Source: Sulfurospirillum deleyianum DSM 6946 (GTDB lineage: Bacteria > Campylobacterota > Campylobacteria > Campylobacterales > Sulfurospirillaceae). From it: a stretch of DNA of 64,000 bases. The DNA is taken from NCBI RefSeq assembly GCF_000024885.1, contig NC_013512.1:1054001-1118000 (forward strand). The letters are read 5' to 3'. The notes under the pieces are model-generated. The model searched no databases, was not told the DNA's origin, and saw only the letters and a program-made list of their open reading frames with translations. Below are positions 11,584-44,459 of the stretch, in pieces. Both the position numbers and the translations under genes were made by a program. The first letter of the stretch is position 1. The number at the start of each line of letters is the position of its first letter.

Positions 11584-13014
11584 TTAGATAAACCCTGGCG
11601 CATCATTGGAAAATAAAATCAAATCACCCGCATAGGTTTGCTCCGCTAAGAGCGCTTGCAATTCTGATTTATCCGATAAAAGAATCTTTTGCGCTCTCTT
11701 TACATGTAAATCTAAAATAGGCATATTGCTTTTACCTGTAATAATCACAACATCAAAAATAGCATCTATTTTTTCTGCGAGACATTTATTGGCTTCTTCC
11801 GTACTCTCTACAATACCAGGCGTAACAATCACTTTACGTCCTTCATAGTGCGAAACCAACTCGTAAGAGCTAAGCATTCCTTCTAAATTACCATTAAAAC
11901 TATCATCAATAATTATTTTTCCACCTGCTTCAATTTTTTGAAGACGATGTTCTACCCCTTTGAGCTCTCTCATTGCCTCTTGAATCATCTCAATACTCAT
12001 GCCCAATTCTCTAGCCACATGTACACACGCCGCAAGATTAATGGCATTAAAATCTCCAAGCAAGGAAGCGCTAAAGTGCTCCTCTTTTCCTTCAAGAAGC
12101 ATGCTAAAGGTTAGTCCATCCAGCGAGGCTTTTACCTCTTTAATTTCACTCCCAAAGGAGAGAATAGTTGGAGTCTCTTTGATCTGTGCACTCTCATGAA
12201 TAAATGCTTTTTGAAGCCGATTGGAGTGAATCATTTCCATTTTAGTATTGCGGATATTTTCAAGCGTTTTAAAATACTCAATGTGTTGTTCTCCAATACG
12301 CCCAACAACGGCAATATGAGGATTGACACATCGTGCTATTTCATCAATATCCCCTTGCATACGAGCACCAGCCTCAACAATATAGATATCACACGTATCA
12401 GGTAAATCGTTATTGATATCTTTCACAATCCCCGCTAAAGTATTGACACTTCGAGGGGTATGATACACGTTAAACTCTTTAGAGAGAATAGACGCTAAAA
12501 AATTTTTAATGCTCGTTTTCCCATAACTTGCCGTAATCGCAATCACTTTCATGGAAGGGCGTTGTGCCAATTTTTTTTCCGCTTCTTTTTGATAACTTAA
12601 AAAGAGCATTTTTTCAAAAAACATACTAAGAAGCTGTGCAATGGCTAAAGGAATGATAACTCCAAATTTAAAACAAGCCCCCACACATAAAAGATTTTGA
12701 AAGAGTATGGCAAGCACTAAAAAAAGGAAAAAACGTTTGATTCGAGCAGTTAAAACCAATTTTTTATCATTTTTACGGTTCCAAAGAAAAAGAGCTAAAA
12801 GATAGAGACCACAGACGCCATAAAGAAAGAGACCTTCTAAGAAATAATACGCCAATAAAGGTAAAAGAAAAAAGTAAAGATGCCAATCGTAGCGATTAAA
12901 ATGAAACAAAACACGCTCTAAACGGTAGCCATACCACTGCATCGCCAAAATAAAGTAGTACCCCAATCCTATGACAAAACCAAAATGGACTAACGCTTCT
13001 ATAAACCACGCCAT
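11584..13014 (-). CDS. murF: UDP-N-acetylmuramoyl-tripeptide--D-alanyl-D-alanine ligase, membrane-anchored form
   Basis: Adds D-Ala-D-Ala to the muropeptide precursor. The ligase part starts about residue 150, with the ATP loop TASYGKTS at 161-168, the central domain (IYIVEAGARMQGDI) and the C-terminal domain (IIIDDSFNGNLEGM). Residues 1-135 are not the usual MurF substrate domain. They form a hydrophobic region with about four membrane segments, as I recall for Campylobacter MurF proteins, so the enzyme is probably tethered to the inner membrane. It is the last gene of the fapA-ruvA-ddl operon, fitting with ddl upstream. A TTACATGTAA copy at 11700 is read as LHVK. Confidence 0.9.
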   Translation of the reverse strand: MAWFIEALVHFGFVIGLGYYFILAMQWYGYRLERVLFHFNRYDWHLYFFLLPLLAYYFLEGLFLYGVCGLYLLALFLWNRKNDKKLVLTARIKRFFLFLVLAILFQNLLCVGACFKFGVIIPLAIAQLLSMFFEKMLFLSYQKEAEKKLAQRPSMKVIAITASYGKTSIKNFLASILSKEFNVYHTPRSVNTLAGIVKDINNDLPDTCDIYIVEAGARMQGDIDEIARCVNPHIAVVGRIGEQHIEYFKTLENIRNTKMEMIHSNRLQKAFIHESAQIKETPTILSFGSEIKEVKASLDGLTFSMLLEGKEEHFSASLLGDFNAINLAACVHVARELGMSIEMIQEAMRELKGVEHRLQKIEAGGKIIIDDSFNGNLEGMLSSYELVSHYEGRKVIVTPGIVESTEEANKCLAEKIDAIFDVVIITGKSNMPILDLHVKRAQKILLSDKSELQALLAEQTYAGDLILFSNDAPGFI

Positions 13015-39833: not shown

Positions 39834-39861
39834 CCTTAAAAATCTTTACATGTAAACGTGT

Positions 39862-39881
39862 GGGCAACCATTTGGTTGCCC
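39862..39881. terminator. Hairpin between convergent nitroreductase and chemoreceptor genes
   Basis: GGGCAACCA (39862-39870) and TGGTTGCCC (39873-39881) form a stem with a 2-base centre. A TTACATGTAA copy lies beside it at 39846-39855. T-runs are weak on both sides. Confidence 0.6.
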
Positions 39882-39891
39882 CTGAAAAAAA

Positions 39892-41793
39892 CTACGATTT
39901 AAACTTGGAGAGTTCGTTATTGAGCGTTTCGGTAAGTTCGTGAAGGTGCTCACTTGCGCCTGCGATCTCTTCGACACTGCGTGTGTTAGTATTGGTCAGT
40001 ACGCTGATTGCTTCGATGTCTTTGGTGATCGCATCAATTTGACTGGATGTATCGATATAATCTTGCACTGTTTTTTGGGTGTTGGTGATGGTGCGTCCAA
40101 GAACAGCCGTAACGTCGGAAACATTGGACTGCACATCAACCGAAATATCAGAGATTTTGTTGATCGTATCGGAGTTGGTATTCATCTCCACACTCACACC
40201 ATTGATAGATTGGGTGACAACGTTGATGGTAGCGTTGATCTCAACCAAAGATTTTTGGGTACGCTCAGCCAATTTTCGCACTTCATCGGCAACCACGGCA
40301 AATCCACGACCATGTTCACCCGCACGCGCCGCCTCGATGGCAGCATTGAGGGCTAAAAGATTGGTTTGATCGGCGATGTCATTGATCACATTGAGAACAT
40401 TTTTAACTTCATTGGTATTGTCACTGACGAGGGTGAGTTTGTGCGCAAGTTCAACCTCGTTGTGTGCGGTATTTTGAAGAAGATTTGAAAGGTTTGAAAC
40501 GTTTTCTTCGACCTTTTTAAGACTATGCGTTACCTCTTCAAGCTCATTTTTAGAAGTCACCGCACTCGCAATAGACTCTTGCAAATAGACTTTTAACGAG
40601 GTCGCATCTGTGGTTGTTTTGGTAACAATAAATGACTCTTCTTCGGCACGTTTGCCGACATCAATCGCAGAGATAGAGAGTTCATGTGCCACGGAAGCAT
40701 TCTCCGCGCTGTTTGTTTTTGCCGTTGTGATGATGGTATGAATTTTTTGGATGAAGAGATTGATGTTTTCACTGATTTTACCAAGTTCATCACGGGACTG
40801 TATGGTAAGACGCTGCGTCAAGTCGCCCTCACTGCTGGAGAGATTTTTGATCACGTCGTTGAGTTTTACAAGAGGCTTAAACTGAGCATTGAGAATGAAC
40901 TGTAACAACGCCAGTGAAAGCAAGACCATAATAATGCCCGAAATGCCAAGTACGATCAGCATGTTTTGAATGGAAGCAAAAGCGACACTTTTATCGATGG
41001 TGACATAAAGCGTCCAGCCATTTTCAAGTTTAGTGAACGCTAAAAGCTTCTCGACTCCATCGGTAACTTGGTACTCATACGTCCCTGTTGCATGGTTTTT
41101 AACTAAGGGTTCAAGATTTTTGAGAGAATCTGTGATTTCATACAAAACCTTATCAATCATCTCTTTATTAGGATGGAAATTTATTTTTCCCGAAGCGTCG
41201 GTGACAAAAGCGTACCCTCCTGGAAATTTGGTTGCATTGATCTTCTCAACCACTTGGGTTAAGTAGACATCATTGCCGATAACCCCTTTGAGTACGCCAT
41301 TCACAAAAACAGGCGCTGCCGCAGAAATGCCAAGTTGACCTGTCGATGCATCAACATAGATATCGGTGACGATAGATTTGCCTTCTTTTTTGGCTTGGAT
41401 ATACCAAGGTCGTTTTCTAGGGTCATACCCTTCTTTTGGCTGAGATTTGTCACTGTAAAGCATTAAACCATTCTCTTCTATTCCTATGTACGTCATACCA
41501 GCTTTGGTTTTTTGAAGTGCCGTTAAGAGGTAGGGAAGCATAGCCTCTTTATTTGTAAACTCTTGCAAATGGGAGATATCATCAGCACTGGTCTCTAAGA
41601 CAATTTTTTGGGCATTAAGCCATGATTCGATATCTATTTTGAGTGCATTTGCTTTGGCTAATTGTGTCTGCCTTATCTCTTTATGAAGAGCGTCTTTGGC
41701 ATTGATAAAACTTACAATTCCAAAAATGAAGAGTGATGCTGCCAAAAATATACCTGAGGAAAAGGCTATTTTTTGCTTAAATCCAAAATTCAT
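39892..41793 (-). CDS. Methyl-accepting chemotaxis protein with dCache sensor
   Basis: Transmembrane chemoreceptor of 633 residues. It has a first membrane helix about 10-32, a periplasmic double-Cache domain about 35-265 ([43 protein letters not shown]), a second helix about 278-302, a HAMP domain about 303-357, and a cytoplasmic signalling domain. The signalling tip is [24 protein letters not shown] near 470-495. The DxRxRPWY segment suggests amino-acid or carboxylate binding, but the ligand cannot be fixed. No C-terminal CheR tether is seen. The gene stands alone, with its own terminator. Confidence 0.93.
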
Positions 41794-41918
41794 TGAAATT
41801 CCTTTGTTTGAAGTGGTTTTTATTTTACAAAGACTCTATTACATTTCTGATACAAGGAGTTTCTATGGAGCAATTTGGCTATGATAATGGAAAGATAAAC
41901 GTGCTATTGGAGGAAAAA

Positions 41919-42476
41919 ATGAGACGATTTTTGATGCGAATGTCTTTTGGGTTGATCTTAGCAAGTCTTGTGTTAAATGCCGTTTTGGTGGTTCTTTTTT
42001 CATGGACCTACACAGCGCTTACCCAAGAAACACTCATCGCAACGGTTTCTTTTAGCAAACCTTACGACAGCAGTGGTTTTCACATCGCACATCTAAGTGG
42101 CGAAGACGGCAAAGTCGTTGGGGATTTTAAGATCTACGGCGAACAGTGGCGCATCGATGCTAAATTTATGAAAATGAAATACTGGTCCAATCTTCTCAAA
42201 CTAGACTCACGCTACGTTTTAGAGCGCTTTGAAGGGCGTTACAAAAAGAGCGAAGACCAAAACAATCAGCAAAAACTCTCGCATGATCTTGGTGAAAACA
42301 CGTTACTAGACCACTTCACCCTTCTTGGCTGGAATCCCTTCGTCGACATCGAATACGGAAGCTCGGTCTATCAAGAAATCACGCTCAACCAACGCTTTGA
42401 AATCTACAAAACCCCAACAGGCTTTGTGGTACGAAGAGTTCCTTTAGTGCAGGGTGCAAATACAATGCAGAAATGA
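41919..42476 (+). CDS. Hypothetical single-pass membrane protein
   Basis: Protein of about 185 residues with one N-terminal membrane helix (about 8-32) and an extracytoplasmic domain. The latter has motifs such as GDFKIYGEQWRIDAKFMKMKYW and DSRYVLERFEGRYKK. I do not recognise a named family. I chose the ATG at 41919 because TTGGAGG stands just before it; the longest frame from 41793 would begin on the divergent chemoreceptor start. The domain may be a sensor or a lipid/electron-carrier accessory; nothing decides this. A palindrome copy follows at 42497. Confidence 0.65.
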   Translation: MRRFLMRMSFGLILASLVLNAVLVVLFSWTYTALTQETLIATVSFSKPYDSSGFHIAHLSGEDGKVVGDFKIYGEQWRIDAKFMKMKYWSNLLKLDSRYVLERFEGRYKKSEDQNNQQKLSHDLGENTLLDHFTLLGWNPFVDIEYGSSVYQEITLNQRFEIYKTPTGFVVRRVPLVQGANTMQK

Positions 42477-42528
42477 TTTTTTTAAAATAATTGCTTTTAC
42501 ATGTAAAGATACTATTATCTAATTTTGC

Positions 42529-42534
42529 TACAAT
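42529..42534 (+). promoter_or_regulatory. -10 box of the mntA-hepT operon
   Basis: TACAAT in the context TTTTGCTACAAT, identical to the element before murJ, followed by AGGAG at 42549-42553 and the ATG at 42562. Confidence 0.5.
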
Positions 42535-42561
42535 GAAATTAAAATTTCAGGAGAAGATGCG

Positions 42562-42855
42562 ATGAGTGAAAAAGAGCTGATTTTACAAAAATTATCTGTT
42601 TTAAAAGCTCAACTTGCATCCAACTATCACATCATATCGCTTGCCCTTTTTGGTTCAATGGCACGAGATGAAGCAACCCAAAATAGTGATGTTGATGTGC
42701 TTGTCGATTTCTCGCAAACACCTGATTTGTTGACGTTTATCGAACTTGAGGAAAAACTCAAAAATGCCTTGGGTAAAAATGTTGATCTTGTTCCTAAACG
42801 AAAACTCCGAGCTGAACTCTCCCAAAGTATTCTCAAAGAGGCGATTGCGGTATGA
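42562..42855 (+). CDS. mntA: MntA-type minimal nucleotidyltransferase antitoxin
   Basis: Small nucleotidyltransferase of 97 residues. The GS-x10-DxD motif is complete (GSMARDEATQNSDVDV, about 31-46), and a third acidic residue follows in NVDLVPKR. In the MntA-HepT system the MntA protein AMPylates the HepT toxin and silences it. The stop overlaps the hepT start by 4 bases (ATGA), the normal arrangement. All catalytic residues are present, so it should be active. Confidence 0.9.
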   Translation: MSEKELILQKLSVLKAQLASNYHIISLALFGSMARDEATQNSDVDVLVDFSQTPDLLTFIELEEKLKNALGKNVDLVPKRKLRAELSQSILKEAIAV

Positions 42856-43205
42856 AACGCAATTATCTTTTGTATCTGGATGACATTCTTAAAAGCATTC
42901 AAAAGATTGAAACCTTCACGGCTGGCTATGACTTTGAACGCTTCAAAACTGATGATAAAACGGTGAGCGCATGTGTCCGCGAACTTGAAGTCATCGGCGA
43001 AGCCACCAAACAAATTCCTGATGAAATAGCCTCAAAATACCTTCAAATCCCTTGGTCACTTATGGCAAAAATGCGCGATAAACTCATTCACTGGTACTTT
43101 GAAATCGATGAAGAGATTGTCTGGAAAGTGATTACCGAGCAGTTTCCAACACTTAAAATGCAGATAGAAGTGATGAAAAAAGAGTTAATAGAAGATAAAA
43201 GTTAA
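42852..43205 (+). CDS. hepT: HepT-family ribonuclease toxin (DUF86)
   Basis: HEPN-domain RNase of 117 residues. The catalytic Rx4HxY motif is intact in MRDKLIHWYFEID (about 76-83), and the Tyr of this motif is the residue AMPylated by MntA in studied systems. The preceding segment RELEVIGEATKQIP is also typical. With mntA it forms a complete type VII toxin-antitoxin module, which may stabilise the chromosomal segment or act against phage. Confidence 0.9.
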   Translation: MKRNYLLYLDDILKSIQKIETFTAGYDFERFKTDDKTVSACVRELEVIGEATKQIPDEIASKYLQIPWSLMAKMRDKLIHWYFEIDEEIVWKVITEQFPTLKMQIEVMKKELIEDKS

Positions 43206-43331
43206 AAATTCAGTCTCGATCTTTTTTTTGTTTTTTGCTATCAACTGCTTTTTGAAGCTTAGAGATGACCAAAAAATTCTTCTGTTTAACTAGCAGTTTG
43301 GGTTTGATAAATGTATTATTAAAGGAAAATA

Positions 43332-44189
43332 ATGAATACATCGTATGAAGAAAAAACATTTGAAAATTATTTTAATGCAGAATTGGGTAATTTAAGTTCT
43401 GTCTATTTTCCTCTTGGTCAGACACAAGAAGGAGTCATAGGTGCAGATTCTGTAGCATATTCAAAAAATAGGCACCTATGGAAGATGTTCGGTTATCCTT
43501 GGTTTTGGTTTCAGCCACCTTACAGAGGTAGAGATTTACAGGATATTGCACAGGAAATGGAGCATCATACAAAAGCAAGTATTCAGAATATACCAAAAAT
43601 AAAAACCAACTTATTATTTCAGTACAAAAGATCTAAATATTTGATATTACCTTCGAGTGGACAATGGCGTCATTGGAATCAACCCTATTTTAGATATGAA
43701 ATATATCCAAAACAGCAAAAATTACTTGAGCATCTTGAAAGTCAGTTTGGACAACAAGCATTGGTTTTATATGCTGCCCCTGCTATTAAAAATGTGGAAG
43801 AATTAGTAGAAGCAAGTATAAAAAAACAGATAATTGAAAAAACAAACTTTCAAAAAGTGTCAAACTTGTCAGGGCATCATAAAAATACATTTGTTCAAGC
43901 GGGAACAATCTCAAAAGCATTTAGTCAACTAGAAGAAATTGAAAATGTTGATTTGCTAAAAACTTTAAACAATATAGATGGTCAAGATTTTAGTTTTGAC
44001 AAATTAACTTCATTCACATCAATAGTCAATGAAGTTATGATAGAAAGCAATGAGTATAATCATTCATTCAATTTATTGATGGAGCAGTATTCAAATCTTC
44101 AAGAATATAGAATTTTTTATGGATTAATGCAAATGAAAGTTTTTAAAGAATTAACTGGTATTCAGTGGTCAATGAGTTTTGAATATTAA
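43332..44189 (+). CDS. Unrecognised protein, possible PD-(D/E)xK-fold nuclease
   Basis: Protein of 285 residues with no family I can name. The order of motifs is suggestive. An N-terminal helix has Glu (NAELGNLSSVYFPLGQ), then comes a Gly-Ala-Asp turn (VIGADSVAYS), and then a buried strand ending in Gln-x-Lys (NLLFQYKRS, about 92-100). Glu...Asp...Gln-x-Lys is the layout of the Mrr-like branch of restriction-endonuclease folds. The C-terminal 110 residues are helical. The gene is markedly AT-rich, about 30 percent G+C in lines counted by hand. AAAGGAAAA precedes its ATG. It follows mntA-hepT by 126 bases and looks like accessory cargo. Function is not established. Confidence 0.5.
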   Translation: MNTSYEEKTFENYFNAELGNLSSVYFPLGQTQEGVIGADSVAYSKNRHLWKMFGYPWFWFQPPYRGRDLQDIAQEMEHHTKASIQNIPKIKTNLLFQYKRSKYLILPSSGQWRHWNQPYFRYEIYPKQQKLLEHLESQFGQQALVLYAAPAIKNVEELVEASIKKQIIEKTNFQKVSNLSGHHKNTFVQAGTISKAFSQLEEIENVDLLKTLNNIDGQDFSFDKLTSFTSIVNEVMIESNEYNHSFNLLMEQYSNLQEYRIFYGLMQMKVFKELTGIQWSMSFEY

Positions 44190-44217
44190 GAAAAATATTT
44201 ATTTTTTTTGTTGATAA

Positions 44218-44334
44218 ATCAAAGACTATTTTAAAGCATTATCCGCTAAAGTCGGTATGCCTTACCAAATGTTGATTAATTCATTTTTGATGGATTGTGC
44301 AAAAAAGCATGTTGAACCTAAAATTCAGTGGTGA
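44218..44334 (+). pseudogene. C-terminal remnant of a CopG/BrnA-like antitoxin
   Basis: A frame of 37 codons plus TGA encodes ALSAKVGMPYQMLINSFL and then KKHVEPKIQW. The first part matches the end of the ribbon-helix-helix domain of CopG/BrnA-type antitoxins, where Lys-x-Leu-Ser-Ala-Lys-x-Gly-x-Pro-Tyr-Gln is characteristic. An in-frame TAA stands just upstream and no start or N-terminal strand is found, so the gene is truncated. No toxin partner lies beside it. Confidence 0.6.
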
Positions 44335-44376
44335 TATTTTTTATATGTAAAAAACTGTAACTAAAAAAAATCATCA

Positions 44377-44410
44377 AGTTATGAGATAACACGTTATGCA
44401 TCTCATAACT
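44377..44410. terminator. Hairpin before tex
   Basis: Perfect 11-bp arms (44377-44387 and 44400-44410) with a 12-base loop, followed by CTTTTCC on the plus strand. It closes the accessory segment. A TAAAAT at 44418-44423 just after it may be the tex -10 box. Confidence 0.55.
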
Positions 44411-44459
44411 TTTCCGCTAAAATACCCCTCCAAAAATCTTTACATGTAAAAGAGAAATT

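Follow-up and report, generated by a model that had tools for sequence, protein, structure and literature searches.

Positions 43332 to 44189 of a 64,000-nucleotide stretch of Sulfurospirillum deleyianum DSM 6946, called the window here and belonging to a complete genome of 2.3 Mb, hold a forward-strand gene whose product, P0001, we read as a stand-alone, mobile nuclease of predicted PD-(D/E)XK type that is probably defensive. We give this reading a probability of roughly one half. It brings together residues that are invariant among ten members of the family, a modest likeness to a known catalytic domain, a recent transfer between species, and the genomic surroundings of the homologues.

Invariant residues and a predicted nuclease fold

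An earlier note, made from the sequence alone, had pointed to an N-terminal Glu, a Gly-Ala-Asp turn and a strand ending in QYKRS, placed in the order of a PD-(D/E)XK fold of the Mrr type. The protein, which begins MNTSYEEKTFENYFN, indeed contains Glu6/Glu7, Gly37-Ala38-Asp39 and Phe96-Gln97-Tyr98-Lys99-Arg100-Ser101. Ten sequences were aligned: P0001 and its homologues from Candidatus Nitrotoga fabula, Vibrio coralliilyticus, genome G327, Pseudoalteromonas xiamenensis, genome G1244, Sulfitobacter, Pseudosulfitobacter, Sinorhizobium and Agrobacterium, the two Sulfitobacter-type rows being near duplicates. The alignment omits a 95% identical copy of P0001 (L002), a copy whose frame is broken (L069), one in two pieces (L108) and one reduced to its 3' end (L008). 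Identities of family members to P0001 fall to 18-23%, and, apart from the start Met, 13 columns show the same residue in nine or all ten of the rows: E7, P27, E33, G37, D39, Q97, K99, R121, Q128, L132, Y147 and S198 are found in all ten, and A148 in nine. Since they are invariant across ten members, the residues picked in the earlier note are more than a chance pattern.

The order of a Glu in the first helix, an Asp, a QxK on the next strand, and then Arg and Gln is that of motifs I to IV of the PD-(D/E)XK nucleases, as described in the accessible part of PMC1913061. The acidic residue of motif I (E7), the Asp of motif II (D39) and the QxK of motif III are all present in P0001, at the following positions:

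43332..44189, forward strand: P0001, 285 amino acids, putative PD-(D/E)XK-type nuclease (open reading frame, translation, homologues)
43350..43352, forward strand: Glu7 codon, candidate motif I, in the first predicted helix (10/10 rows; motif and helix placement are predictions)
43428..43430, forward strand: Glu33 codon, an invariant acidic residue ahead of Gly-x-Asp (10/10 rows)
43440..43448, forward strand: Gly37-Ala38-Asp39 codons, candidate motif II (G37 and D39 in 10/10 rows; aligned with the Gly-x-Asp of Mrr)
43461..43604, forward strand: residues 44-91, insertion between motifs II and III (ten-row alignment)
43620..43628, forward strand: Gln97-Tyr98-Lys99 codons, candidate motif III, QxK (Q97 and K99 in 10/10 rows; aligned with the QxK of Mrr)
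43692..43715, forward strand: Arg121 to Gln128 codons, candidate motif IV region (R121 and Q128 in 10/10 rows; presumptive assignment)

The insertion, of about 48 residues, occurs only in the close subfamily formed by P0001 and the Nitrotoga and Vibrio proteins; in the short-loop members, the Asp and the QxK lie near each other in sequence. Insertions into the core are common in PD-(D/E)XK nucleases, again according to the accessible part of PMC1913061. We propose that P0001 would be a metal-dependent nuclease acting on its own, whose catalytic site would combine Glu7 from the first helix, Asp39 from a strand end and Gln97-x-Lys99 from the core strand that comes next. Arg121 and Gln128 would act as motif IV, residues 44-91 would be a subfamily-specific insertion, and residues 151-285 may supply substrate recognition or oligomerisation. 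The PD-(D/E)XK fold is predicted with good confidence, mainly because of the invariant residues.

The natural comparison is with the catalytic domain of Mrr (Mrr_cat, PF04471). Such domains were found in 18 of 60 genomes; among the 26 matches listed, 20 were used for comparison with hhalign, six (L090 and L095-L099) being dropped as short or weak. The domain DUF4365 was found in one of 60 genomes, too few for a comparison. Against the 20 Mrr_cat domains the ten-row alignment scores 18.7, a value that none of 100 column permutations reaches (maximum 15.1), and its Gly-x-Asp and QxK fall exactly in register with those of Mrr_cat. A seven-row subset of short-loop members also beats 100 of 100 permutations, but over a later strand. 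When rows are left out one at a time, the score of the ten-row alignment ranges from 13.4 to 20.7; with gap-trimmed columns it goes down to 15.9, the reversed controls giving 11.0 and 10.4. This is modest support for a likeness to Mrr at the level of sequence profiles, marginally above the controls.

Several results weigh against the proposed nuclease, and with them belong the observations on constraint and on plasmid surroundings reported in the later sections. The E-value of the ten-row comparison is 0.058, and its gap-trimmed score is reached by 9 of 100 permutations in blocks of 4, one of them at 27.1, and by 1 of 100 in blocks of 8. Four smaller alignments (A1, A3, A4 and A6) do not rise above their controls: 35, 11, 9 and 4 of 60 column permutations, respectively, reach their scores. 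Of the Mrr type suggested in the earlier note, what stands is the register of the Asp and the QxK in the ten-row alignment. AlphaFold, given P0001 and the Nitrotoga homologue as a two-sequence input and run twice with each in turn first, produced unreliable models (predicted local distance difference test, pLDDT, 30.9 and 33.7) and no usable structure. The second of these unreliable models (pLDDT 33.7) places helices at 4-18 and 125-138 and strands at 23-32 and 90-97, an order compatible with PD-(D/E)XK. The best matches of P0001 have E-values of 0.1 in Pfam and 0.015 in NCBIfam, both scoring far under the curated cut-offs; a PDB sequence search yields no relative (best E-value 1.4), and PADLOC-DB 2.0.0 returns no family for any of seven members at E-values up to 1.

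Other searches agree that P0001 belongs to no recognised family, as the earlier note had it. The best PHROGs match is not significant (E-value 0.052), and the Pfam profile of Mrr_cat itself matches neither P0001, nor seven members of alignment A6 at E-values up to 5, nor the homologue on L105. Profile searches of the PDB give nothing noteworthy, with best E-values of 0.38 (A1), 0.051 (A6) and 0.65 (A3); the match of A6, to a neuraminidase, was rejected as not credible.

Another possibility is that P0001 is not a nuclease, its conserved acidic, Gln and Lys residues serving another fold or a binding function. Such a protein would account for the missing library and PDB-sequence matches, for the unreliable models and for the marginal profile likeness to Mrr. 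However, most of the invariant residues are polar and of catalytic type and follow the PD-(D/E)XK motif order and spacing, and the separation of Asp and QxK in the short-loop members is like that of Mrr domains; we consider this alternative unlikely.

A rare family carried by plasmids and cassettes

P0001 is a real bacterial gene of a small, unclassified family: its reading frame starts with ATG, and stops are abundant on the opposite strand across 43332-44189. At 30.3% G+C, against 38.7% for the window, it is AT-rich. The idea of a promoter of its own was dropped, since 4 promoter-like sites were found against 6.7 expected by chance; the same scan showed no terminator-like site.

The family is rare and scattered. 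Among the 60 genomes around the window's own, matches occur in two, the genome itself and G014, one of 23 other congeners, whose copy is 95% identical. A scan of genome contigs found a sole locus, in Candidatus Nitrotoga fabula (46% identity to P0001), and a plasmid of Vibrio coralliilyticus carries a homologue with 40% identity. Profile searches added G327 (matches in 2 of 369 genomes, counting the search centre), G746 (2 of 398, again counting the centre) and G1244 (3 of 300: the centre, G1244, and a weak match, L103, with E-value 5.9e-4). A further profile search matched 4 of 298 genomes, two of which were set aside as chance, and revealed a 3' remnant in G685: of a P0001-like gene, L008:1537-1659 retains about the last 46 codons and no more (E-value 6.5e-15); it lies close behind an intact-looking gene and is a trace of acquisition and later loss. 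Matches treated as chance were L009, whose 94-codon stretch contains five internal stops, and L010, which falls within what reads as an aminopeptidase-like frame. Searches of plasmids led from the G327 protein to a homologue on a Pseudoalteromonas xiamenensis plasmid (58% identity), and from the G1244 protein to five alphaproteobacterial plasmids (E-values 3e-28 to 9e-12). No homologue appeared in any of eight viral-contig scans or three phage searches. P0001 represents a new family of a known kind, one-gene and unclassified; a literature search by title found no description of it, from which we do not claim that it is undescribed.

Some of the copies travel in integrons. Around the Vibrio copy is an array, many of whose genes are set apart by imperfectly palindromic repeats of 119-125 nucleotides. 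Fifteen flanks of family members were scanned for attC-like hairpins, with 100 shuffles each and seven control flanks; in a second run the core-pair threshold was lowered from 5 to 4, the score was changed, and the slices were moved to include the gene ends. The Vibrio 3' flank, both Pseudoalteromonas flanks, the G327 5' flank and the Nitrotoga 3' flank score above all 100 shuffles; the scores of the G327 3', Nitrotoga 5' and Vibrio 5' flanks are reached by 2, 6 and 14 shuffles of 100. Single hits are not proof, since one of the seven control flanks, behind another Pseudoalteromonas gene and by reading likely a terminator, also beats all its shuffles. We conclude that the gene is an integron-type cassette in Pseudoalteromonas, G327 and Vibrio; for Nitrotoga the data are suggestive. 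The window copy is not such a cassette: neither its flanks nor those of G014 exceed their shuffles, where they contain a candidate at all. The scan gave no candidate in the flanks of G746 and G685. An Rfam scan of L003, L004, L011 and L064 found nothing, and no integrase is annotated in the stretches viewed, where plasmid gene tables are incomplete and no dedicated integrase search was made.

Recent arrival in a variable slot

We now turn to the neighbours of P0001, which lies 3' of an MntA-like/HepT-like pair and 5' of a gene that reads as tex:

42562..42855, forward strand: MntA-like nucleotidyltransferase antitoxin (PF01909, 3e-16; synonymous divergence from G014 0.73)
42852..43205, forward strand: HepT-like toxin (PF01934, 1.7e-28; synonymous divergence from G014 0.84)
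43321..43326, forward strand: AAAGGA, likely ribosome-binding site of P0001 (by reading of the sequence)
44218..44334, forward strand: 38-codon remnant just behind P0001 (translation)

The toxin-antitoxin pair reported beside the gene in the earlier note is therefore there. The remnant, in which Pfam found nothing, presumably resembles the C-terminus of a BrnA-type antitoxin.

The copy of P0001 in G014 has the same place and orientation, behind hepT. The two copies differ by 7 synonymous and 15 non-synonymous changes, for a synonymous divergence (dS) of 0.045 and a non-synonymous divergence (dN) of 0.022. Between the same genomes, dS is 0.73 for mntA, 0.84 for hepT and 1.02 for the first 349 codons of tex, so that mntA and hepT stand at 16 to 19 times the value of P0001. 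It follows that P0001 moved between species much later than its neighbours diverged: it was recently acquired, and moved independently of them. The dN/dS ratio of 0.48, computed on few changes, is weak evidence of constraint, and is one of the unfavourable observations announced above.

Twelve tex slots of the genus were compared. A gene that reads as nitroreductase-like stands directly before tex in four of them (G005, G013, G009 and G003); elsewhere the cargo consists of CheB/CheR-like genes (G008, G015), another MntA/HepT-like pair (G004) or an unassigned protein of 274 amino acids (G010), and P0001 has a copy in one, that of G014. The region from the nitroreductase-like gene to tex, 39834-44459 in the window and its counterparts on L052-L063, is an integration hot spot of the genus. 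G006 and G008 kept mntA-hepT with other genes in place of P0001. In G006 the slot is held by another nuclease, a protein of 314 amino acids with HNH_repeat and HNH domains (L058:1402-2346; PF18780, 4.3e-31; PF01844, 2.5e-13).

P0001 does not behave as a third component co-inherited with an MntA-HepT type VII system, given the dS values and the G006 and G008 slots. Because of the contrast in dS and the varied cargo of the tex slots, the MntA-HepT pair is best read as a shared landing site and not as an obvious partner of P0001. Adjacency to a toxin-antitoxin pair can thus mark a common landing site rather than a common function.

The window also holds 12 copies of a perfect palindrome, TTTACATGTAAA, against 0.00 expected from 100 dinucleotide shuffles (positions 11699, 13735, 15100, 19641, 28489, 39845, 42496, 44439, 46034, 46907, 56874 and 58152), both inside and between genes. 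It occurs just upstream of tex in 11 of the 12 congener slots, being absent in G009, and looks like a highly iterated palindrome of the genus.

Genomic surroundings and the probable role

The case for defence rests on context, here a set of examples and not enrichment statistics. In G1244, the homologue (L105, 6704-7609, reverse strand) lies 64 nucleotides behind a CD-NTase with a SMODS domain (PF18144, 3.5e-9); a membrane protein, hsdS and hsdR are upstream and hsdM is downstream, all on the same strand. The whole locus, L105:3615-13658, is a type I restriction operon, hsdR, hsdS and hsdM, interrupted by the CD-NTase, the membrane protein, the P0001 homologue, an unassigned protein and an AbiEii-like gene (weak, below cut-off). 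In G746 a broken copy comes after a UPF0175/DUF3368 pair and a remnant that resembles HsdR at a Pfam score under the curated cut-off; in Phyllobacterium a broken copy sits beside hipA and a helix-turn-helix gene; and about 1 kb from the G327 homologue there is a pair of genes, one BrnT-like (below cut-off) and one like a CopG antitoxin. On the unfavourable side, the Sulfitobacter, Pseudosulfitobacter, Sinorhizobium and Agrobacterium copies sit among plasmid, transposon and metabolic genes, and no defence genes are annotated near those of the Sulfitobacter, Sinorhizobium and Agrobacterium plasmids, except an AAA ATPase and an exonuclease on the opposite strand. The recurrence of homologues near toxin-antitoxin or restriction genes, a check proposed in the earlier note, is seen in G1244, G746 and Phyllobacterium but not in several other contexts. 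As for the suggestion that P0001 is itself a defence gene, some contexts favour it, and the pair next to it has a different history; we find the chances of a defence role evenly balanced.

External data make such a role plausible. According to the accessible parts of two papers, PD-(D/E)XK domains occur in 13 of 31 newly validated systems (PMC13092281), and anti-phage activity was seen for at least 16 of the 179 cassettes tested from one Vibrio integron and for 9 of 57 in another Vibrio (PMC12409362). Such counts lend plausibility to an anti-phage function of a PD-(D/E)XK-like protein carried on a cassette, although most of the tested cassettes had no such effect.

A PD-(D/E)XK nuclease could also have a role other than defence, in DNA processing, in repair or as an aid to its carrier elements. 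The contexts are mostly those of mobile elements (a plasmid relaxase region, Tn7-like TniB/TniQ genes, clusters of insertion sequences, cassette arrays), and the superfamily holds many repair and recombination enzymes, as the accessible part of PMC1913061 states. However, P0001 is a single open reading frame, and no recombinase recurs as its partner among the loci viewed; the cargo genes of integron arrays are many and unrelated, and one copy lies inside a restriction/CD-NTase cluster. We hold such a role to be rather unlikely. The G1244 locus raises another possibility, an abortive-infection effector that would attack its own cell's nucleic acid when triggered, for example by a second messenger of the CD-NTase, with its partners encoded at other places in the same genome. 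The L105 homologue is directly behind the CD-NTase and the membrane protein, on the same strand, but this is one locus, no annotated cyclase adjoins the gene in the other loci viewed, and the nucleotidyltransferase next to P0001 in the window is an antitoxin of MntA type, which is paired with HepT and has had another history. We think an abortive-infection effector quite improbable.

We return to the stand-alone defensive nuclease, for which P0001 is a good but unproven candidate. It would travel as single-gene cargo of integron cassette arrays, plasmids and a variable chromosomal slot, and would most probably cut invading phage or plasmid DNA, acting as one-gene defence. Reading the open reading frames of 38-50 kb of the window revealed no DNA methylase of the kind that accompanies a type II restriction nuclease, the Pfam scan there covering P0001, MntA and HepT. 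Since none is evident among the flanking genes, foreign DNA would be told by its modification, its structure or a trigger, and not by a cognate methylase. In a more tentative extension, the family would be a compact, single-gene PD-(D/E)XK family, spread by cassettes, plasmids and chromosomal hot spots in Campylobacterota and Pseudomonadota, whose members may guard against phages or plasmids by detecting DNA that is foreign or modified, with no methylase as partner; in some genomes the nuclease may also be coupled to a CD-NTase within a restriction locus. We regard this full picture as possible but doubtful.

Should P0001 be a defence nuclease, the PD-(D/E)XK systems would gain an unclassified family of one gene, and there would be a further example of integrons and plasmids storing defence cargo, one that takes in a genus with no integron seen around the gene. 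The family is small enough for cloning in one step, and its invariant residues allow a clean test of activity.

Among known systems, Mrr_cat, the catalytic domain of a type IV restriction endonuclease, has in common with P0001 a first-helix Glu, a Gly-x-Asp and, on the strand that follows, a QxK; P0001 differs by its 48-residue insertion between motifs II and III, by its C-terminal part, and by the marginal statistics of the comparison. With the PD-(D/E)XK superfamily as a whole the family shares candidate motifs I to IV, all invariant, a likeness drawn from sequence; it fits no named family. The closest parallel in genomic setting is with the cassette-borne anti-phage genes of Darracq et al. 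and Kieffer et al., as reported in the accessible parts of PMC12409362 and PMC13092281. The window copy departs from them in lying outside an integron, and P0001 is likened to them through sequence and context; like them, its Vibrio, Pseudoalteromonas and G327 homologues are single small open reading frames carried in arrays.
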